64,000 nucleotides of DNA from Doris montereyensis (lineage: Eukaryota > Mollusca > Gastropoda > Nudibranchia > Dorididae): assembly GCA_037039925.1 (NCBI GenBank), contig JAXRKP010000699.1, positions 111,001 through 175,000 of the forward strand, read 5' to 3'. Shown here piece after piece: positions 18,800-63,844 of the stretch (position 1 is its first letter; each line of letters starts with the position of its first letter). A model generated the notes under the pieces. It was given only the letters and a program-made list of their open reading frames with translations. It did no database searches and was not told where the DNA came from. The translations under genes were made by a program, and so were the position numbers.

Positions 18800-19062
18800 T
18801 ATTGTCACAATCACATAACAGTGGATTGAAAAAATCAAACTGTGTGTCACAATCACATAATAGTGGATTAAAAAAAATCAAACTGTGTGTCACAATCACA
18901 TAACAGTGGATTGAAAAAATCAAACTGTGTGTCACAATCACATAACAGTGGATTGAAAAAATCAAACTGTGTGTCACAATCACATAACAGTGGATTGAAA
19001 AAATCAAACTGTGTGTCACAATCACATAACAGTGGATTGAAAAAATCAAACTGTGTGTCACA
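18800..19062 (-). repeat. 42-bp in-frame coding minisatellite in the THAP transposase
   Basis: Six copies of a 42-bp unit encode DTQFDFFNPLLCDC. One copy (about 18845-18887) is 43 bp because of an extra A and shifts the frame. A single unit is probably the original transposase sequence. Confidence 0.9.
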
Positions 19063-20904
19063 AGAATGTAATTCCATTTGGGCTTTCGTCTCTTCAAGAG
19101 GAAGAGTAATATCTTTGAGCTTAAGTAAGCCCTTTGATGCTGAGATCATGTATAGAACACTAAGAATTTTATTTTTTCTCTCCTTCAAGTAGTTGCTGAA
19201 CAGATACATGGAAATTACATCCACTCAATCGTCGGTACAGACTAAAACGCAATTCAAGATCATCCGTTTGGAATTTTCCAAGCAGGACATATTTGTATCC
19301 TCTTTCCTGCAGAAGATATATGCACAGTTCAATGGATGCAGACAAAGTATGACTTAGGGCAGTCATTGTTTCATTGGAAAGAATTCCTTCCCTTGGTTTC
19401 AGACCACGGCCTTTCCACTCCTCCAACCATCTAAATGCATGTTGCATGACAGATAGATTTTGGTCCTCAGTCGATGAAATTGGATTACAGTTGTCATTCC
19501 TTTGCCGTGCTCCTTTGTAAGGGTGTTTAACATTGAAAATATTCCACAATTTATTTATAAAAGAAATGAACTCTCTCGTTCCTTGTGTATCAATTTTCCA
19601 CTTTCTTTCAAAATGCTCTAAGGCAGTGATATTCCTGATGTCAAAAGCGTTGAGCATAAGTTGAACATTTTGTTTCTCCAATGAAGTAGGATGCAAAGAT
19701 TTATAATTCAGACTTGGGGCAAGCTTGACAGGTGAACATTTTTCATGATTATAAGTTATAAAGTTTTATCAAATGAGAAAAGGAAGATCGCAACAAACTG
19801 GTGTTATTCATGGTGTCTACACTTAGAGAAGGAAACATGAAGGTTTTTTCGACATCTTTTTGCATTAACCAATTGTTTCGAATGCATTTGAACAAATGTA
19901 CTGAATCGAACAGAAAATACAAACGTTGCGTAGGATCATTTGGGTGTGTGATAGAGGTTTGCAAGGTCCCTCCTGTCATAATTGTGAAAGCATTTCTATT
20001 CACTCGGTTGTTGTCGTCAGAAATTATGCACAGGACTGAATATCCAGTAGCGTGTAACAGATCTAGAACATTCTGAATGGCTTCCTTCAACCAGGCTGCA
20101 TTAACATTTTTAACAGGTATGATTGCCACAACGTCTTTTGATTTCGATAACACAGAAGAAATCATGAACACTTGTGCAGTGCTTGCTTCAGCTATAGGAC
20201 AATTGGCAGCTGATCCTTCCAACTTGCCTTCTTTGTAAGAAACACGTGGCGATATATGTATCTCATCCAACATTAAGATGACACTTCGCTCTCTTGGAGC
20301 GAGATTGGAACATTTTTGTTTTAAGTATTCTGTACGAACATTTTCCTCTGTCAAGCCACTCCTTATCTGAAAGACCGAAGCAAGCTTCCTTAAATAAGAA
20401 GGATGAGGAAGTGTAAGGTATGAACTTCTCATGATCACGTAGGCACGAGGAGCTAAGGCATGAATTTTGAAAGCCCAAAATCAAAGTGTAACAGGAATAT
20501 TTCTTTGAAGAGGATACACTTAATTTCATTTGCTGGACTAGAAACACCAACCTGTCTTTCTTGGCATCATTTTCTTCATCTTCACAATCAACAGAGCAAA
20601 TCTCTTCCACTGTATTCATCAAAAGTTTAAGTTTTTGATCAAGATCAACACTTTCCATACCAGAATGTCCACTTGAGAAATGTGACAGAATCGTATCAAA
20701 CTGAGACCATGTTTTGAGGATTGAAGATTGAGGCTTCCCAAAAATCCAAGACAATGATGCTTTCTGTACACGACCTGGAAAAAACAATTAGAAAAGACCA
20801 TTACCAGTTAGTATAGTCAGTCAGAAATACAATTTTAAAAAAATTAAAAATAGATCAGATTGACACACAACATAAGAACTCAACACATCAAAATTCTTGA
20901 CTTA

Positions 20905-21089: not shown

Positions 21090-21312
21090 TTATCGACTCA
21101 GTTGAAAATGAGTGCCTGGCTATTATAGGTAGTGATGGACATTGTCAGTAGTATTGAAGCGCTTAAACAGCGCTGGTACTGTACACTCCCAAGGGAGTTG
21201 AAAATGAATTTGGTTTCATTTGGCCTATCAGGGAGTAAATGTTGTACAGCGCATAGAGCCTGATATTATCGGGAATATTATGCGCTATATAAGTGTACAC
21301 TTTACTTTATAA
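21090..21312 (+). mobile_element. LINE 3' tail in the THAP intron
   Basis: Contains AAGCGCTTAAACAGCGCTGG, CACTCCCAAGGGAG and GCGCTATATAAGTG near the end, the pattern of CR1-like LINE 3' ends. No RT is left. It ends next to the exon 1 donor. Confidence 0.5.
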
Positions 21313-22224
21313 TACAGAAAAAATCAAATTCAAACTCACCTCCTTTACTTGTAAAGATTTCCACATGCATGTCTATGAAAACTTTGACTGTTGCCGTCAG
21401 CATAGGTGCACTTTCCCGATCATCGAGGAGCCTATAGAAACTCCAGTAATCATCCATGATAGATACTGATGGTTGGTCGTGGTCAGCAATGTTGTCGTTG
21501 CCATTTTGGAATCTGTACAACCACTTAGAATCTATTCGTGTTTTAAAATCCTCATTGAAATGAGAAAAATCTTTGATTTTATCGTTCTCTAACCATTCAG
21601 TAAAAGAACTGTTGTCCCATTCCTCCATCTCATGACGTCTATCTTCAGGTTTCTTTCGTTTCAAAGGATTCGTTTCAGATAGATAGGATGGGCAGTTAGG
21701 AAAGATAGAAGGATAAGCATCAGCAGTAAGTTTAGGTTTTGATCTAGGCACTGTCAAAACACTACCATCTTTTCTTGTCGCTGAGTCAATCCTGACAATG
21801 AAATGATCAACAAAATGTCTCTCACATACAACAGTAGTTGATGAAGGCACAAAATTATCTCTAGGAATTTTATTCATCCACAAAGACCTCCTCTCTTCAT
21901 TTTTTGGTAAGAGAAAAACAGAAACTTTTTCCTTCTCGTCGTAGTTCCCCCTACAGTTGGGGACACAGCACTTTTTACCACCCATTGTTGATTAACAATA
22001 GATCTAGCAATTCCACAAATGAATAAAAGTGAACAATCACTTAAAAGAATATTAAATATAACAATATAAGAATATAATAGATTGAGACTGGCAGAATGAT
22101 TTAATCCAACTGAAATTGCTCTTCAACGATTTGAAAGAACCGCCAACACACTCGACACATGATGCTTCTTGTGACGTCACGAGACGGAAACGAGAGCACA
22201 CTCAGGCTATATATATCACGACGG

Positions 22225-44424: not shown

Positions 44425-44429
44425 AGAAC

Positions 44430-44630
44430 TGTTAAAAAACTAAGGGTAACGAAACTTAAGGGTACCTCAATTTTAGAGGATTTTCAGTAAAGGGAAACTA
44501 GCTAGCTGGTGTGAGCTGTTAGCAAGTTAGTTGGAATAAAGATCTGGAAGAAAGAAGACGGCTCCTTTATTTGGCTTTGAAAATCTGTGTTGTAAAATAA
44601 GTGTCCTACATCACTTGTGTTACGTTAGCC
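44430..44630 (+). repeat. BEL/Pao 5' LTR
   Basis: Starts TGTTAAAAAACTAAGGGTAA and is homologous to 56130-56327. Its right border is set by the primer-binding-like site at 44632, so it is accurate to a few bases. Confidence 0.88.
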
Positions 44631-44823
44631 GTGGTGCCGAAATCCGGGACGATATTCCTAGTATGTTCGGAATAATATCAGTGTCATTTTGATGTAGGTT
44701 TTACAGTAGCTGTGAGTGAAAGCATTAGTGGAATTCCAGATCAAGGTAACTCAAAGTCAGTGTCTTCCATTGTTATGTTTTTTACCTGTGCGGAGATAGG
44801 TCAACAGCACGGTATCGGAGAGC

Positions 44824-45760
44824 ATGGCCCAAGGTGTGGCGAGTACCAAAAGGCGACAAACCACTGCAAAAAGGGTGGCTGTGCGAGGTGATGAATTTAG
44901 ACCGTCTGTTGGCAAACACAGAGTTAAACGAAACAGAACGGACGGGGGCCGTCTCAGAGTACCATAGGAGACAAAGTAAGTTGCTCCAAATTTCAGAACA
45001 TGTATAGCTCCTCTTAAGTGGAGAAGAACTCGATACTGATATATAAAGACTGATCATTCATTTCTTGTAGATTGTAGAAAAAACAGAAACGAAAGCGGTC
45101 AACCGATTGGAGAAGTTGATGAAGGGTGATACTGATGGTGACAGATCACAAGTAGGTGAAGTTTTTCACATAAATAACTAGGAGACACCAACCTATTCGG
45201 ATGAGGAATTTGCCAAAAGCGTTTATCTTCCCAAATTACAGATTGGGAAGTTCAGAGGTAAACATACTGAATGGCAATCGTTCATTGACAAATATGTGGC
45301 TGCCATCAGCAACTCCAAGCTGTCTCAGAGGACAGAATGCAGTTACCTCCAGTCACTTTTGTCCGGCGATGCGTTGGCGTGTATAAAGGGTTTGAGCCTT
45401 ACAGCGGGTAACTATAATCATGCTCTAGTAATTTGGAAGAACGATTCGGCAGAAAGGACAAAATTATATACGAACACATTCAACGGTTGCTTTCCATCCA
45501 TGTCGGCAGCGCCAGAAACATGCGACATCTGTGGTCGCTGCACAATCAGCTCCAGTCTCATGTCTGTAGTCTCTAGAACCTCGGCATCATGGGAGAATAA
45601 TATGGAGTCCTCCTCACTCCATTGATAATCATCCGTCTCCCCAACGATATTCGCCTCGAGTGTGCACGTTCCAGTGACAAGAGGGAATCAGATCTTTGGT
45701 TGTGCCTCGTCACCTTTTCTCTTGGGTGCCATGATAAGGCATCATTAAAACAAGTATGAA
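44824..45760 (+). pseudogene. BEL/Pao gag (DUF1759-type), broken
   Basis: An ATG at 44824 opens MAQGVASTKRRQ, which stops within about 50 codons. From about 45220 the frame has YLPKLQIGKFRGKHTEWQSF and then LLSGDALACIKGLSLTA, the hallmark of Pao gag (capsid-like DUF1759). Continuing in another frame to 45740 are LENLGIMGEQYGVLL and RLPNDIRLE. The whole is in several frames with stops, so it cannot make a Gag protein. Confidence 0.8.
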
Positions 45761-45769
45761 CCAAGCAGA

Positions 45770-46099
45770 GTTATTCATGAAATGAAGAGCAACATGTATA
45801 TGGAAGATCTCCTAACAGGAGCTGATGACACAACTCAAGCTTGTTAAATGATTGACGATGCCTGAAGAATTATGTCTGGGGCAAAAATGCAATTGTCCAA
45901 GTGGGGATCGAATAGTGAAGTGGTCAAGGAAAAGCTGTTCAAAGAGTTTAAGGACACCACAGTTCAGGTGGACGTAATAAAGATTTTGGATCTGAAATGG
46001 GATTCTTCTTCAGACCATTTTGAATTCAGTGGTTTTCCTGTGTCACCAGATGTTGTAGTGACTAAACGTTTGATCTTGAATCCTCGATCCTTTGGGTTT
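45770..46099 (+). pseudogene. BEL/Pao RT fragment
   Basis: Directly after gag comes NMYMEDLLTGADD, the RT active-site block (usually YVDD, here YMED), then KMQLSKWGSNSEVV and VVTKRLIL. The protease and the N-terminal half of RT are missing, which marks an internal deletion. It ends at DPLGF, cut by the LINE insertion. The matching continuation IPFTVAAKLLFQKLW resumes at 50243. Confidence 0.85.
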
Positions 46100-46830
46100 T
46101 TTGTGTTTCCACCTTTTGAATCCCTGCTTCGACTATGCATTATACCAGCGCCATGTTGGGAAGTCTAAACAGACCGTGTGTGTTCAATGTCAACATCGTG
46201 AGTATCATGACGTCACTAAACACAAACATAGACAAAAAGAGGAAGGAAGGGTAGGACACGCGTAAAGAACAAACAAGGACAATGAAGACCTTTCATTTCA
46301 ATAATTTCATCATTGGTTTTGGGCAACGTAAGATCTTCAGCCAATAAATTGGAGGAATTACAGACGACAAGCAAATATCTTCATCAATACAATGAAACAT
46401 CATGTTTAGCTTTCGTTCAAACTTGGTTTAGCCAAAATATTAGCGAATCCAGTACAATGATAGATAACTTCTTCGTGATTCGTTCCGATCGGACACCAGG
46501 GGTGGGCGAGAGTAGAGGTGGTGGTGTGCCTTTATGTGAATGATAGATGGGCCAACAAAAAAACAATGTCACCGTCAAAGAGACACTATGTACACCAAAC
46601 ATAGAGCTTTTGACGGGGAGCATGGTACCATTGTATTTACCACGAGAGTTCACATGTGTGTTGGTAAACGTGGTCTATGTGCCACCAGCGGCAAATGAGA
46701 CAGAGGCAATTGACACGCTGACCTCACGCATTCATGATAAGAGACCAAATTGCCGGACGCTGTGAAACTTATACTTGGTGATTTTAACCATTGCTCACTG
46801 GACTCCACTCTCCCTCATTATCTCCAATAT

Positions 46831-47680
<850 letters not shown>

Positions 47681-50242
47681 GCTCCACAATATGTGCCATG
47701 CTACACAAAGGAGACCGAACACTTGATTTGTGCTACTGCAATATTCCTGGTGTGTACCATTGCCCCCTTTGGGAAATTCGTTCACCTGATACCTAAATAT
47801 AGGCCACTATTAAAACGTTCAAAACCGGCTGTGAAGACAGTGAGACTGAGACAGTGGACCCCAGATGCTACTCACAAGCTAATGCAGTGGTATGAAATGA
47901 CAAACTTGGATGTCTTCATAAATAATTGTACTGATATTAATGATTTGACTGATACATTTCATCGTATGTAAAAAAAATTGAGGAAACTATTATAACACTC
48001 ATGACCCTTAAAGTATACCCAAATGGGTTACTAGAGAATTAAAGGAGGTAATTGTTAATAAGAAAAAGAAATTCAAAGAAAACAAGGATGGATAGACTGA
48101 AATCAATCAATAGGGAAATAAAACTTAAGATTAAAGAACGTAACCAAAAATACAAAGCTAAAATTGAATCCTATTTTGAATGAGGAAATCAAAACAGACA
48201 TGGGAGGGAATGAAGAAAGTGACAGGCTATGAATCAGTTAAATCAAGTTTGAATGTGGAAAATGAAAGTGAATATGTGAATGATCTAAATAATTTTAATG
48301 CCAGATTTGATAACCATAAATTTAGAGAAGAACAACGCAAATTAAGAAACATCTTGAATGAGAAGGCATTTGAAGAAACTATTGAAGATGAAGTTATGAA
48401 ATGCATGCTCAGTATCAATGTAAATAAACCTTGTGGCCCAGATAAGATAAACCGCAAGCTTCTCAAGACTTCTGCTCATCAGCTTGTAAAAATCTGTACC
48501 TATCTGTTTAATCTGTCTATTGATACTAACACCATACCAACTATATGGAAGACTGTAAATATTGTGCCAGTACCAAAAGTAACCTCCATATCCTCCATGA
48601 ATGATTTAAGACCTGTTGCATTGACTTCAGTAATTTTTAAATGTTTTGAAAAAATAATGCTTCCAAAACTTTTCAAAAAAATCAAGTGGACACATCATTA
48701 CATCTGTATTATCAGTTTCCCTACAACGCAGAAAGAAATGTTGAAGATGCAGTCTTGGTTTTCATCAATGATCTCCTGAAACATATTGAAACCCTCAAAA
48801 CTTATGCAAGGGCCCTTTTTTATTATAGATTTTTCCTCTGCTGTTAATACCATCCAACCCCACCTAATGATTGAAAACTTACTTTCCCTTAATGTTTCGT
48901 CTAAACTAGCTGGCTAGGTGCTTGACTTTCTTACAGAGATATAAAATCTCAATATGTTTTCCTCAATAACAACATGTCAGAGGTCATAACCACCAACACT
49001 GGCGCGCCACAGGGCTGTGTTTTGTCCCCTGTTCTTTACATTATTTATACAAATGATTTTAGAACATCTTCTTCAAATGTAAAGCTTAGCAAAATTGCTG
49101 GTGATTCAAATTTTCAGGGGCTTTTTTTTTTTTAAAGATGAGTCATCTTACTTTGCAGAGGTAGTTAAGTTTGTCAGATGGTGTGAGGACAATTTCTTCC
49201 AGATCAACGTCACTAAAACGAAAGAAGTTATTTATGATTTTAGGAGAAAAATTCAACAATATCCTACCGCTTCAAATCCACGACAAAACATAGACATTAC
49301 TAGTGTTTATAGATATTTATGACTTTTATTAAATAATAAATTAAAATAAAATTCTCACGTGAACGCACTGTACAAACGAGCGAATCAGCGTTTGTAGTTT
49401 CTGTGAAAACTGAGCTCTTTTGAGGTAAGAAATGAACTTCTAAAAATCTACCATTCAAAGTATATTGACTTTTGGAGTAACTGTCTGGGGGGGGAACTAT
49501 CTCCATGAAAGATAAAAAACCCATCAAATAGAATAATAACAAAAGAATCAAACATAATACAACTTAGTCTTCCACCCTTTGACGAACTGCACTCTGTAAA
49601 TGTTATTATAAAGGGTGTTGGAATATTACAAGACCAGTCCCATCCCTTGAATAAAAAATACGGAAGATCACAAAGATACCAACGCGTCATGTGCAAAAGA
49701 TCGAGAACAGAGAGATATAAAAATTCATTTGTTCCCACCTCCATTAAAAAAAAACTTCAATAAGTGTTTCGTTTAAATTATACTATTTCTTAGTCTTAAA
49801 CTCTTACTTTCAGTTTTAAGCTCTTATTTATCGATTTTACTAGATTTATTAAACATTTACTTTTTGTGGTACAATACTGCAGATTTTGAAAAGGACTGCA
49901 TTAAGGAATTACAGCTATTAAGACAGGCTGCTTAGACATTTATTTATATTATGAATGGAACGCGATTTTTGTATTTGTGATACCATTTACAAAGATTTTA
50001 AAACATATCTATATTTATATTTATACAACATAATCATTATGATTTGATATTGTCCATATCTATAAAGCATCGGTTTTGTAATGTATTGATTTTAGTCGTG
50101 CAATAGAGAATCAAAGAGAGAATGAAAGTGAAAGAGATGAATTGTATTGTAATTTATTCATGTTGATTTGAAACGTGACCAGAGCAAATTTCGTTTTGGA
50201 CAAAATAAAGACCTCTTATCTTATCTTACCTTATCGTATCTT

Positions 50243-51910
50243 TCTGATCCCTTTCACTGTTGCTGCTAAACTGCTTTTCCAGAAGCTCTGGAAATTGGGA
50301 TTGGACTGCGATGAAGAGGTTTCCAGTGAACTTAGTTTCCAATTTGTCACTTGGATCAAATGTCTTGGTGACCGTAAACCTTTAAAGATCGAAATATTTT
50401 GTAACCCAGCCAGGGACGAATAGCAAATTTATTGAGCTACATTCGTTCAGTGATGCATCAGGAGAAGTTTATTGTGCTGTTGTTTATGCGAAGATAATTG
50501 AAATTGATGGCAGCGAAAGTGTTTCAATGATTGTGGCGAAGGCTAGAGTCGCCCCCGTGAAAACCGTAACCTTGCCACGTTTAGAGTTGTTGGGTTGTCT
50601 GCTTAGTGCACGCCTCGTCAGGTTTGTGTTGTCAGAAGATGCTTCATACGTCTGTTGGACAGACTCGATGGTTGCCTTACATTGGATGCGGAGTGATTAC
50701 CCCAAATGGAAAACGTTCGTTGCCAAAAGAATCGCAATTATCCGAGTATTGACATGTCCCTCTAGGTGGGAACACTGTCCTGGATCAAAGAACCCGGTTG
50801 ATATGGGAACTCGAGGACTCACCGCAAAGGCATTGATGACCTCCTTCGATTGGATGCATGACCCTACTTCCCTGCTTGATAGCGACAGCGAGGTCATACG
50901 CGAAGACATAGAATCTTCAGGAGAAACAAATTTTATTTGCTCTTCCGAGCACCAGACTACGGGGCAAATCCTTCAAACAATGGATAAGCCCGTTCTTCCT
51001 ACTGAACGGTGGGAGAATTCACGAAAGCTATGAGAATAGTGACATGGATTTTGATATTCATATTATCTAACCTTCGACAGAAGAAAACTGAAATGAACCT
51101 TTCCAAACATTTGAATGTATCTGAAATGGACATGAGGGTCATTCTAAAGTGTGAACAGCGACGCTATTTCTCAGGAGAAATTAAAACCTTACAAAGGGCA
51201 ATTGTGTTTCAAAACTGTCTTGTTTGTACAAATTGAATCCATTCCTTGGGAGGGACGGCTTGCTCAGATTGAGAGGCCGACTTGACCATTCAGAGTTGTT
51301 GTATGAATCAAAACATCCTATCATATTGCCAAAGAGTCATGTTTCGAAATTGATTATTGGACGTGAACATTTGAAATCGAAGCATGGGGGTGTATCTCAT
51401 ATGGTATCAACTATCCGAAATGAGTTCGGAATTATTGGTCTGAGAAATTTGACTACAAATGTAAAAAGGGAATGTGTCACATGTGTCAGGTTTGACTCCC
51501 TTCCATGTCAGCAGCCAATGACACCCTTCCCCTCCCCAAAGAACGAGTGAAAAGAATATCTTCTTTTGCGGTCACTGGAGTCAATTTTGCAGGGCCTATG
51601 CACACAATATATCTCCCAGGTATGAAACATTATTTTTGTCTTTTTACTTGTGGCACTTTCAGAGCTGTTCATCTGGAACTGGTGAACAATCTTTCAATAG
51701 CCCAGTTTATGTTGGCATTCAAAAGGTTTATAGCGCGCAGAGGTTTACCAATATGTATTTTCAGTGACCAGGCGCAAACATTCAAAGCAGCTGAAAGACA
51801 CATTTTGACTGAATACGCCGAGAATAGTCCAAAATGGAAATTCACAAAACCCCGAAGCCCATGGGCAGGGTATATGGGAACGGACGGTTCGCTCCATGAA
51901 ATCAAGCATG
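50243..51910 (+). pseudogene. BEL/Pao pol: RT end, RNase H, integrase N-terminus and core
   Basis: RT tail IPFTVAAKLLFQKLW, then RNase H (HSFSDASGEVYCAVVY, VTLPRLELLGCLLSARL, CWTDSMVALHWM). Integrase follows: the zinc region (HGGVSHMVSTIRNEFGI, CVTCVRF), then the core TGVNFAGPMHT, where the first catalytic Asp of the DDE triad is Asn, then ARRGLPICIFSDQAQTFKAA with the second Asp. The third block (W-E-R-x-V) lies in the first unit of the array that follows. Frames shift several times (near 50430, 51030, 51225 and 51545). Not functional. Confidence 0.88.
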
Positions 51911-53930
51911 AAGAAATGCATTGGAACGAATGGTTTGCTCCGTGAAATCAAGCATGAAGAAATGCATCGGAACGAATGGTTCGCTCCGTGAAATCAAGCA
52001 TGAAGAAATGCATTGGAACGAATGGTTTGCTCCGTGAAATCAAGCATGAAGAAATGCATTGGAACGAATGGTTTGCTCCGTGAAATCAAGCATGAAGAAA
52101 TGCATTGGAACGAATGGTTTGCTCCGTGAAATCAAGCATGAAGAAATGCATTGGAACGAATGGTTTGCTCCGTGAAATCAAGCATGAAGAAATGCATTGG
52201 AACGAATGGTTCGCTCCGTGAAATCAAGCATGAAGAAATGCATTGGAACGAATGAAATCATGAAGCTCATTGAAAGCTCCGTGAAATCAATGATGAAAAA
52301 TGCATTGGAACATTGGAATGGTTTGCTCCGTGAAATCAAGCATGAAGAAATGCATTGGAACGAACAAGAAGTGCATTTGGCTCCATGAAATCAAGCATGA
52401 AGAAGTGCATTGGAACGAATGGTTCGCTCCATGAAATCAAGCTTGAAGAAGTAATTCGAATGGTTCGCTCATGAAATGAAGAAATGCATTGGAACGAATG
52501 GTTCGCTCGTGAAATCAATGAAATGCATTCAATGGTTCGCTCCATGAAATCAAGCATGACGAAGTGCATTGGAACAAATGGTTCGCTCCGTATCAAGCAT
52601 GAAGAAGTGCATTCGAACGAACGGTTCGCTCCATGAAATCAAACATGAAGTATGATGAAAAAGTGCATTGGAACAAATGGTTCGCTCCGTATGAAGCATG
52701 AAGAGATGCATTGGAACGATGGTTCGCTCCATGAAATCAAGCATGACGAACTTCAAGAAGTGCATTCGAACGAATGGTTCGCTCCATGAAATCAAGCATG
52801 AAGAAGTGCATTGGAACGAATGGTTCGCTCCATGAAATCAAGCATGAAGTGCATTGGAACGAATGGTTCGCTCCGTGAAATCAAGCATGAAGAAGTACAT
52901 TGGAACGAATGGTTCGCTCCTATGAAATCAAGCATGAAGAAGTACATTGGAACGAATGGTTCGCTCCATGAAATCAAGCATGAAGAAGTACATTGGAACG
53001 AATGGTTCGCTCCGTGAAATCAAGCATGAAGAAGTACATTGGAACGAATGGTTCGCTCCGTGAAATCAAGCATGAAGAAGTGCATTGGAACGAATGGTTC
53101 GCTCATGAAATCAAACATGAAATCAAGCATGAAGAAGTGCATTGGAACGAATGGTTCGCTCCGTGAAATCAAGCATGAAGAAGTACATTGGAACGAATGG
53201 TTCGCTCCGTGAAATCAAGCATGAAGAAGTACATTAGAACGAATGATTCGCTCCGTGAAATCAAGCATGAAGAAGTGCATTAGAACGAATGATTCGCTCC
53301 GTGAAATCAAGCATGAAGAAGTGCATTGGAACGAATGATTCGCTCCGTGAAATCAAGCATGAAGAAGTGCATTAGAACGAATGGTTCGCTCCGTGAAATC
53401 AAGCATGAAGAAGTGCATTAGAACGAATGATTCGCTCCGTATCAAGCATGAAGAAGTACATTGGAACGAATGGTTCGCTCCGTGAAATCAAGCATGAAGA
53501 AGTACATTAGAACGAATGGTTCGCTCCGTGAAATCAAGCATGAAAGTGCATTAGAATGATTCGCTCCATTGGAAGTGCATTAGAACGAATGGTTCGCTCC
53601 ATGAAATCAAGCATGAAGAAGTGCATTAGAACGAATGATTGGTTCGCTCCATGAAATCAAACATGAAGAAGTGCATTAGAACGAATGGTTCGCTCCGTGA
53701 AATCAAGCATGAAGAAGTGCATTAGAACGAAATGGTTCGCATTCGAATGGTTCGTGAAATCAAGCATGAAGAAGTGCATTAGAACGAATGGTTCGCTCCG
53801 TGAAATCAAGCATGAAGAAGTGCATTAGAACGAATGGTTCGCTCCGTATCCAAGCATGAAAATCTCCATGAAGAATGAAATCAAGCATGAAGAAGTGCAT
53901 TGGAACGAAATGTCATGAAATCACCATTGG
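51876..53930. repeat. 46-bp minisatellite made from the integrase active-site region, over 40 copies
   Basis: The unit contains GGAACGAATGGTTCGCTCCG and TGAAATCAAGCATGAAGAA, then RTGCATT. In one frame a unit reads ERMVRSVKSSMKKCI, the Pao integrase block that holds the third catalytic residue. Because 46 is not a multiple of 3, successive units rotate through three frames. Left copies have AAATGCATT, right copies mostly AAGTACATT or AAGTGCATTAG, so variants are grouped. Many partial units occur at 52250-52760. Confidence 0.97.
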
Positions 53931-54480
53931 AAGAAACTCACCAAGACTGAGTTGATCACTCTATTGTGTAGAATAGAACAATGTATCAATAGTCGTCCTC
54001 TTATTTATGTGGGAAACTCCGCAGACAGTCTTAATTCGTCGCTTACTCCACAAATCATTTCCTCAATGAGGAGATAGTCTTTTTCTATCAGTAGATCGAA
54101 CCCAAGATACTCAATAATTTTCGAGAGATTTGCAGAAAACTCTCGAATCGAAGGAAAAATTAGATAAATTTCGGGATATTTGGAGCAAGGACTATATCAA
54201 ACATTGCCATATGCACCAGTGGCAAAACCAAGAGGAAAACTGGAGGTAAGTTTTATCATTTTGATAAGAGAAGATAACTGCCCTAAACTGTTTTGGCTCT
54301 TGGGCAGGGTTACAAAATTGATGCGACGTTCGAACTGTGGAAGTAAAACTGAGATAGGCTGGTTTGTCACATCCATTCAAAGGCTCCATAAACTGGAGGT
54401 AAGTGATGTAGGCAATGAGATCAGTGAAAGACAATTGGGATCTGAAGTGAAAAAAAAGTGAATGCGATGATAAACGTGAT
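53931..54480 (+). pseudogene. BEL/Pao integrase C-terminal part
   Basis: After the array come KLTKTELITLLCRIEQCINS and RPLIYVGN, then LTPQII, and LIREDNCPKLFW with LGRVTKLMR near 54260-54320. This is the C-terminal DUF5641-type end of Pao integrase, in several frames. Confidence 0.8.
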
Positions 54481-54892
54481 AATCTGAATGTGGGAATTAA
54501 GACCAGATATGGTCGAAGGATTAATCTCAGACATACTTTGGATTTATAAATATTTAGACACCAGGTATTTATTTGATTGGTTTGAGTCGATCTCGCATGC
54601 GATTATTCTTATACTGAATTTACAAATAAGTTTCTCACACTTGCTTTGCGCACTTGGTGTACTATTATTTTATGCGTTTTAGTTTGTTTTTCTTCTTTAA
54701 TGATTTGCATGAAAGTATTCACGTTATCGTTGTGTCCAGCATAATACATGGTTATCAAGACCTCTGTATTAAAGTTGGTATCAGCATCAAGTACAGATAC
54801 TAGAAAATTAGAACTAATCAAAGCCCTTTGAGATGTTCCCTCAATGGACTCAGTGTGTGTCGCCCCTCCCTCCCTCAGGCGTCCCTTTGTTT

Positions 54893-55556
54893 CACAGGTA
54901 CCTTTTGACCTGTAGGTACCTTGTTCTAACTGCATAGCAATTAGAGACCACACAGGTACCTTGTTCTAACCTGCATAGACCACACAGGTACCTTGTTCTC
55001 ACCTGCATAGCAATTAGAGACCACACAGGTACCTTGTTCTAACCTGCCTATCAATTAGTGACCACACAGGTACCTTGTTCTCACCTGCCTATCAATTAGT
55101 GACCACACAGGTACCTTGTTCTAACCTGCCTATCAATTAGTGACCACACAGGTACCTTGTTCTAACCTGCATAGCAATTAGAGACCACACAGGTACCTTG
55201 TTCTCACCTGCATAGCAATTGATCACACAGGTACCTTGTTCTCACCTGCATGGCAATTAATGACCACACAGGTACCTTGTTCTCACCTGCATAGCAATTA
55301 GAGATCACACAGGTACCTTGTTCTAACCTGCATAGCAATTAATGATCACACAGGTACCTTGTTCTCACCTGCATAGCAATTAATGATCACACAGGTACCT
55401 TGTTCTCACCTGCATAGCAATTAGAGACCACACAGGTACCTTGTTCTCACCTGCATGGCAATTAGTGATCACACAGGTACCTTGTTCTAAGCTGCATGGC
55501 AATTAGTGATCACACAGGTACCTTGTTCTAAGCTGCATGGCAATTAGTGATCACGC
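54893..55556. repeat. 41-bp minisatellite, about 16 copies
   Basis: The unit contains ACCACACAGGTACCTTGTTC and AACCTGCATAGCAATTAGAG, with starts at 55143 and 55184. It lies in the BEL/Pao spacer between pol and the 3' LTR. Variants (CATAGC/CTATC/CATGGC, GAGACC/GTGATC) are clustered. Confidence 0.95.
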
Positions 55557-56129
55557 AGGCCAAATTTAGCTGGTTCCTTTAGGTCTGCAGGTAAACTGAA
55601 CCCCCCGTGCCGCCTTCTATGAATTAAGAAGAGAGTGGGATGGATTTGTAGAGAGCATTATCCCCCGATTTATTGTGTTCACAGTTTGGAAAGTTTACCG
55701 TACCAGGCTGTATAAAAGTAATTAGATGAGCTACAAGATGTGGACTGTTCCAGTAAGTATCGTGTCTCATGTTTGCAAGAATTGCAATTCGAGTATTTTA
55801 GCAACATTTTACCCGAGAAAGAGAGCGAAAAATGCCTAGAGATGGGAAGGTGACATTTCCACATCTATTGGCAGTGAGCTTCCTTTTCTTTCTAAATGTA
55901 TATGTATATGTGCTTGCTTTTCAAGTTCGTATCTTGTCAATGTCATGCACATGTAATTTGCTGTTTGATCAAGTAGCTATGGTATTTCAGTATTTGCAAT
56001 CACGTTGTCATGTGTTAAATTTGCATGCTGTGTCGATGCTTTGATAAGTTTGAAAGTTACACTAATTAGTGTTTGCATTATATTGAAACATTGCTTTATT
56101 GTTGGTTATTGCATAACCAAGGCGGGATG

Positions 56130-56327
56130 TGTTAAGAAACTAAGGGTAACGAAACTTAAGGGTACCTCAATTTAAGAGTATTTACAGTAAAGAGAAACTA
56201 TCTTGCTGGTGTGAGCTGTTAGCAAGTTAGTTGGAATAAAGATTTTGGAAAGAAAGAAAACGGCTCCTTTATGTGGCTTTGAAAATCTGTGTTGTAAAGT
56301 GTCCTACATTTCTTGTGTTACTTAACA
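56130..56327 (+). repeat. BEL/Pao 3' LTR
   Basis: Starts TGTTAAGAAACTAAGGGTAA and ends GTGTTACTTAACA, followed by AGAAC. It differs from the 5' LTR by substitutions and small indels, so the insertion is old. Confidence 0.9.
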
Positions 56328-56399
56328 AGAACACAATACAACTAATTGTTGTATTGCAACGCCTCGTTTCATGTAAGCAAATATATTGCTCACAGTTGA

Positions 56400-61440: not shown

Positions 61441-61514
61441 GGTCGGTTAGCTCAATTGGTTAGAGCGTTGTTCTGATAAGACAAAGGTTGTGGGTTCAAA
61501 TCCCACATCGGCTA
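61441..61514 (+). tRNA. tRNA-Ile(GAT)-like gene
   Basis: All arms fold: acceptor GGTCGGT/ATCGGCT with three G-U pairs, D arm GCTC/GAGC, anticodon stem TTGTT/GACAA with loop CTGATAA, T arm GTGGG-TTCAAAT-CCCAC. Anticodon GAT would read Ile. Animals normally use AAT for this, so a pseudogene or atypical tRNA is possible. A TTTTT terminator follows at about 61518. No intron and no encoded CCA. Confidence 0.7.
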
Positions 61515-63126: not shown

Positions 63127-63535
63127 TAGTGATTTAATCATGCCACACTACTCACACTGGTGTAACAATCGAGGCACAATACAAACAGAAATTTAGATCA
63201 CTTCCGACTACCTTGATATTTCTGAAAACGTATTTACTTGATTTGAAAAGATTTAAAAAAGATGTAGAAAAAGAAAAGAAACCGTTTCATAGTTTGAGCT
63301 CTGCTCCGAGAAATAAAATGAAATGAAACAACACGAAATGACGCCGGAAAAAAAGAAAAGAATACTAAGGTGTGTAACCAAGTAAAAACAAATATCTGTA
63401 AATGTTACAACGATGATCTCCCTTCTGTTGAGGCTTGTCACTTTTAACATTACCCCGCATTTCATCAGCACAGAATATTTTATTTGTTACCAGCTCAAAT
63501 AGTATTATAGATGTTATTGTGTTGTGTATCATAAG

Positions 63536-63609
63536 GACCGGTTAGCTCAACTGGATAGAGCAGTGCTCTTCTAAGGCATTGGTTGTGGGTTCAAGTCCCA
63601 TACCGGTCT
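63536..63609 (+). tRNA. tRNA-Arg(TCT)-like gene
   Basis: The acceptor GACCGGT/ACCGGTC is perfect, D arm GCTC/GAGC, anticodon stem GTGCT/GGCAT with loop CTTCTAA (anticodon TCT), T arm GTGGG-TTCAAGT-CCCAT. A TTTTTT terminator lies at about 63615. It shares GGTTAGCTCAA, TAGAGC and GGTTGTGGGTTCAA with the tRNA-like gene at 61441, so the two look paralogous. Confidence 0.78.
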
Positions 63610-63844
63610 TCTGACTTTTTTGGGATTTGTTTTTACATATCCAGACTGAATACCTTAAAGGGGGGGAGGGTTTATAATTAATTTCGTTATATTATAATTC
63701 TTCATATGGTTATTACTAGTCTTTCATTTTCTGTTCTTTTCTTGTCATTTGAATAAAGATTTTGTATCTGGAAGAAAAATATAATTGGGTGATTTAAGAA
63801 AGTTAAATATCGACATTTAAAACTCAGTAACCAAGAAGAAAAAG

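Follow-up and report, generated by a model that had tools for sequence, protein, structure and literature searches.

Minisatellites are reportedly born through slippage between short flanking direct repeats, a view credited to Haber and Louis (1998) and to Taylor and Breden (2000), as cited in PMC6947457 and PMC3389668. Transposable elements (TEs) are known to feed tandem repeats, and this general picture is left unchanged by the results presented here. A human survey (Ahmed and Liang 2012, PMC3389668) assigns to TEs a minimum of 7,276 tandem repeats, or 23% of the human minisatellites and satellites. The same survey states that the postulated initiation mechanisms explain just 6% of these TE-assigned repeats and that 5,747 of 5,932 clusters of TE-derived repeats are found at a single locus, and a figure legend adds that a repeat can begin in any region of a TE. 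Tandem repeats are also described inside particular families of elements. According to portions of two reports (PMC7004042, PMC3305785), plant LTR retrotransposons of the Ogre and Gmr9 type carry them in the 3′ untranslated region, where many copies share them, and a section of another report (PMC5857280) describes internal tandem repeats in the Drosophila foldback element.

In this study we analyzed a 46-bp minisatellite that lies in a BEL/Pao retrotransposon, within a 64-kb stretch of DNA from the nudibranch Doris montereyensis (the window, whose own numbering is used throughout). The array resembles the human TE-derived minisatellites, as these are presented in the survey (PMC3389668), in that its units appear to come from an internal piece of a TE and to have grown in place. 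It differs from them in its source, a block of the BEL/Pao integrase, and in its size, since more than 40 units are present here whereas Alu-derived repeats average about 2.3–2.4 units in that survey. Like the Ogre and Gmr9 repeats in the portions cited (PMC7004042, PMC3305785), it is a minisatellite within an LTR retrotransposon; a further array at our locus, with a 41-bp unit, occupies the corresponding position, after pol and before the 3′ LTR, whereas the 46-bp array lies within pol. The repeats derived from maize centromeric retrotransposons, in the part of the literature that describes them (PMC3648361), likewise originate in an LTR element that had inserted, and illegitimate recombination has been proposed for them, but their source is the LTR-UTR and they are located at or near centromeres. 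A literature search by titles and abstract openings, which covered few subscription journals, found no minisatellite derived from a BEL/Pao integrase block. Many minisatellites bear no trace of their source, and in the present case the ancestor of the unit can be named to the residue. The locus looks like a clean, traceable case of a known route from mobile DNA to short tandem repeats.

The host element

BEL/Pao elements generate target site duplications of 4–6 bp and possess a pol gene that ends with DUF5641. Judged by its sequence organization, the host of the array is an LTR-to-LTR BEL/Pao copy (44430–56327) with a 5-bp target duplication. Table 1 presents its features, which include a pair of LTRs, the target duplication, a DUF1759 gag, Peptidase_A17 and, after the peptidase, an H2C2 and DDE integrase. 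An inserted BEL/Pao element around the array had been proposed in the initial annotation, and the LTR pair, the 5-bp duplication and the gag/pol order bear that proposal out. The two LTRs differ by 12 substitutions over 190 aligned positions (6.3%); a CA terminus is clear in the 3′ LTR only, and the two sequences qualify as an LTR pair. The peptidase region is read in two parts, with Peptidase_A17 matching at 50416–50667 (E 3.3e-20, 73.1 bits) and at 50241–50390 (E 0.0011, 19.4 bits, under the cut-off of 22.3). The peptidase piece has 156 relatives; among the best 120 of these, the top identity is 52% over two thirds of the query, and the named relatives in this set, from spiders and a beetle, show 34–44% identity.

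The pol gene is broken at several places apart from the array. Its readings change frame and run into stops, and the interval 46200–50243 is occupied by what we take, from its motifs, to be a nested LINE. The RVT_1 match within this interval (48926–49132; E 5.7e-6, 26.6 bits) falls under the curated cut-off of 29.6, and a TTATC-like tail is present at about 50213–50243. The pieces scanned, among them 45866–46165, yielded no recognisable reverse transcriptase of BEL type. Taken together, the apparent nested LINE, the failure to recognise a BEL-type reverse transcriptase in those pieces, the stops and the frame changes make the host copy look dead.

Table 1. Coordinates of the host element, the 46-bp array and associated features in the window.
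Feature	Position	Strand	Basis
Target site duplication, left, AGAAC, 5 bp	44425–44429		Read at outer LTR border
5′ LTR, TG start, aligned extent	44430–44627	+	Pairs with 3′ LTR
gag remnant, DUF1759	45182–45622	+	PF03564, E 4.3e-12, 46.7 bits
Apparent nested LINE remnant, borders approximate; RT piece 48926–49132	46200–50243	+	RVT_1, tail
Pao retrotransposon peptidase region of pol, two frames	50241–50667	+	Peptidase_A17
Integrase zinc-binding (H2C2) region	51185–51547	+	PF17921, E 2.5e-4, 21.5 bits, under cut-off 25.5
Integrase core, first two catalytic blocks, ends P-W-A-G-Y	51496–51876	+	Homologs
46-bp minisatellite, about 44 units, every one derived from third catalytic block (ERMVRSVKSSMKKCI)	51877–53901	+	Tandem Repeats Finder, alignment, profile
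Degenerate remnant of last unit, 3′ border	53902–53928	+	Sequence reading; border set at 53929
Integrase continuation 3′ of array (KKLTKTEL...NSRPL)	53929–54074	+	Profile match
DUF5641 piece, 3′ end of BEL/Pao pol	54168–54458	+	PF18701, E 0.0031, 18.2 bits, under cut-off 23.1
Second minisatellite, 41-bp unit, 14.3 copies, interval between pol and 3′ LTR	54978–55559		Tandem repeat scan
3′ LTR, TG...CA	56130–56327	+	LTR pairing
Target site duplication, right, AGAAC, 5 bp	56328–56332		Read at outer LTR border

The array and its unit

The array was outlined with Tandem Repeats Finder and then by wrap-around alignment to the unit consensus. The former called a period of 46 and 42.5 copies at 51877–53847, and the latter gave a span of 51874–53909 with 46 rows, counting the partial ends. 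All 46 positions are covered in 44 of these rows, 23 of which contain no indel and measure exactly 46 bp. A 46-bp unit in more than 40 copies had been reported at 51876–53930, in good agreement with the approximately 44 units entered in Table 1. In the integrase frame the consensus of the unit translates as ERMVRSVKSSMKKCI, as anticipated by the earlier claim that each unit can encode E-R-M-V-R-S-V-K-S-S, and a stop codon interrupts this frame in 2 of the 44 units. Because 46 is not divisible by 3, successive units shift the frame, so that the block is not encoded over and over in a single frame. A blastn search within the 64-kb window (E 1e-3) found no match to the array elsewhere, and an origin by copying from another place in the window was rejected on this basis. 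A degenerate pattern of the unit, compared with viral contigs, gave 0 matches.

Identification of the unit with an integrase block

Since a Pfam scan of the integrase core gave no integrase match, homologs were used to characterize it. With the core (51496–51876) as query, 25 homologs at E ≤0.001 were found among 28 candidates, the best with an E of 1.0e-20. Nineteen of the 25 were aligned, and their identity to the core is 37–51%; relatives at this distance do not show the ancestral DNA sequence of the block. A search with a longer relative, P0005, produced 1368 matches, and the top 120 were taken. Solved structures searched with the core gave one weak, irrelevant match, and a comparison with viral contigs gave 3 stretches by pattern and 79 by alignment A1, none of which was confirmed as a relative. 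The core reads V-N-F-A-G-P at 51580–51597; among the 17 aligned relatives that extend to this column, 16 have D and one, P0004, has N, and P0002, which is outside that alignment, also has N in this column.

Is a single copy of the block present at the matching site in relatives of the element? A pattern that spans the block, running from P-W-GG through E-R to N-x-R-P-L/I, is matched by 31 of 141 relatives, and a looser block pattern by 68. A stricter motif for the block occurs once in 46 of the 141 and not at all in the other 95, and at the protein level none of the 141 has it in duplicate. Relatives with a single-copy block at the matching site were therefore found at the protein level, with the qualification that the spanning pattern requires N-x-R-P-L/I to lie within some 60 residues of the block and is for that reason biased toward single-copy forms. 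The initial annotation had held that its reading would fail if the relatives all lacked the segment; at the protein level this is not the case, as the 31 matches to the spanning pattern attest.

The array flanks translate as PRSPWAGY on the 5′ side and as KKLTKTELITLLCRIEQCINSRPL on the 3′ side. A profile of 85 positions was built from 28 of the 31 BEL/Pao-type relatives that match the spanning pattern, after P0023, P0061 and P0074 had been excluded as divergent or shortened. The unit was scanned as three successive copies of its consensus, and pieces of the window were scanned separately. The upstream flank (51796–51870) corresponds to profile positions 5–29, with a weak score of 10.4 bits (E 0.028 for 1000 sequences). 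A single unit corresponds to positions 32–50 (19.9 bits) and the downstream flank (53934–54029) to positions 51–82 (23.3 bits). The three pieces tile the profile in order and without overlap, which implies that one unit fills the gap between the flanks. The tiling supports the prediction that the unit represents the third catalytic block of a BEL/Pao integrase, bearing the last catalytic residue. It also bears out both the placement of the array at this block and the statement that the reading resumes after the array with KLTKTELIT and NSRPL. In the triplicated unit all three forward frames match the profile (19.9, 18.1 and 14.7 bits), as is expected for a period of 46, and the reverse frames do not, the best of them scoring −1.4 bits.

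Growth of the array

Among the 44 units the mean pairwise substitution divergence is 6.9%, and the mean for adjacent units is 5.0%. Divergence is correlated with distance along the array (Mantel r 0.31), and a correlation as high was reached in 0 of 5000 permutations; a similarity between neighbours as strong as the real one was likewise obtained in 0 of 5000. When plotted by lag, mean divergence is about 0.05 at lags of 1–5, forms a plateau of 0.064–0.067 at 8–12 and is 0.075 at 15. Individual variants fall into zones. T at unit position 14 is present in six units, every one within the first ten, and A at position 40 is present in units 1–10, 13 and 18. Toward the other end, A at position 42 is carried by eight units in the range 22–35 and A at position 1 by eleven units in the range 30–43. 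Five or more gap or inserted bases are found in 12 units, 8 of which lie within units 9–19. The left-to-right grouping of variants that had been noticed earlier is therefore real. Since units that lie close together resemble each other more than units far apart do, growth appears to have been local, and this decay with distance supports the stepwise amplification that had been suggested, leaving its direction aside. Later growth would have proceeded through successive local duplications, each involving one or a few units.

Two further ideas about the units were considered. The notion that edge units escape homogenisation was not cleanly borne out: unit 43 departs from the consensus by 7 substitutions and unit 1 by 4, but 4 is also the count in inner units 9, 17 and 18, and the final unit shows 0. 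The idea of coding constraint was rejected. The variant types are spread over the three codon positions (8, 10 and 10), and the synonymous share, 4 of 26 classifiable variant types, compares with an expected share of 0.22, so that there is no sign of such constraint.

Origin of the first duplication

ATGGGAA is read at the 5′ border of the array and ATTGGAA at the 3′ border; the sequence at the internal junction is CATTGGAACG. GGAA, exact at this junction, is common to both borders at a spacing of 46 bp, and over the full ATGGGAA/ATTGGAA comparison 6 of 7 positions match. An overlap of at least 4 bases has P 0.017 at a random junction, a value that applies to a microhomology sought once the unit was known. 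In 1590 positions of upstream pol there is no 7-base window with a 6/7 match at a spacing of 46, which adds little, as about 2 would be expected by our own estimate. The occurrence of GGAA at both borders, one unit apart, fits slippage or unequal exchange. The first duplication may have resulted when two short stretches of similar sequence, spaced by 46 bp at the W-E codons where the block opens and the G-R codons where it closes, underwent slippage (or unequal exchange). As set out in part of one account of the slippage model (PMC6947457), the border direct repeats are 5–10 bp long. Our locus resembles that account in having short similar border sequences one unit apart, with a proposed later expansion between longer repeats, and differs from it in that the border repeat, exact over 4 bp and imperfect over 7, is at or below the stated length.

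As a whole, these results make it very probable that the minisatellite was formed in place, its source being a single copy of the third catalytic block of the BEL/Pao integrase. The profile tiling, the block in the relatives and the clustering of variants give strong support to the in-place amplification put forward in the initial annotation, a support that does not extend to its timing or to the idea that it split a working gene. The array would have been born in an inserted copy that was already inactive, and because of this it would have no coding role.

It may be asked whether the array was formed before this insertion, either within a parent element or in the course of reverse transcription, and then arrived with the copy, integrase being supplied in trans. 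The divergence among the units is close to that between the LTRs, so that a younger age of the array relative to the insertion is not evident, and the comparison is compatible with birth either after insertion or in a parent; furthermore, LTR retrotransposons with internal minisatellites are known from the portions cited of PMC3305785 and PMC7004042. However, the arrays described in those portions sit 3′ of the coding region, outside the integrase, whereas the present array breaks the integrase frame. In addition, the 64-kb window contains no second copy of the array, and unit divergence is altered by homogenisation and is a poor clock. We regard earlier formation as unlikely and infer that birth occurred in the host copy rather than in a parent copy.

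Alternatively, the array might be genuine in kind but have a length that was created by collapse or expansion during assembly. It is generally known that 2-kb tandem arrays are prone to misassembly, but an assembler would hardly make ordered zones of variants and many private indels, features that nevertheless do not fix the exact number of units. We consider such an assembly product quite improbable. The most skeptical view would be that the likeness between unit and integrase is due to chance, an unrelated minisatellite having formed in that part of the gene. Minisatellites are common in the window, which lends this view some initial appeal. Nonetheless, 300 base-shuffled units read in six frames attained a top score of 5.5 bits, and 48 frames from eight other minisatellite units of the window a top score of 0.9 bits, compared with 19.9 for the real unit. 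As no control unit scored as high as the real one, and given the orderly tiling of the profile, chance likeness was rejected and retains a negligible probability.

A broader reading is that the conserved W-E-R and I-G-R codons that bracket the last block constitute a recurrent microhomology at a 46-bp spacing, making the block a repeated birthplace of minisatellites in BEL/Pao elements. We think this very doubtful. Were it true, independent arrays of the same period would be expected in other BEL/Pao copies and species, and a protein motif would be seeding DNA repeats. Because the ancestor is known, both borders survive and the order of the variants has been kept, the locus can serve to test both the first duplication and later growth. 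It also carries a warning for annotation, in that the decay of a mobile element can leave behind an array that lies in a gene-like frame.

Other minisatellites in the window

Ten other regions of the window are minisatellites with units of about 34–53 bp in at least 3 copies (the region at 22.6–23.4 kb being counted once), and eight of their units served as the profile controls. With ten further regions of this kind the genome seems prone to minisatellite formation, which renders the 46-bp array less exceptional. One of them, at 18803–19063, has 6.2 copies of a 42-bp unit, a length divisible by 3, and lies beside minus-strand remnants of a P-like/THAP transposase (THAP at 21305–21991, TNP-like_RNaseH_N at 19752–20480). 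Pfam and PDB searches of the region of this array gave nothing useful. The minus-strand reading after the array has no Pfam match, and we take it to resemble a transposase tail. Like the 46-bp array, the 42-bp array may have originated within a transposon gene. Elsewhere in the window, a 1.3-kb minisatellite with a 36-bp unit is flanked by two tRNA genes, tRNA-Ile at 61441–61514 and tRNA-Arg at 63535–63611.
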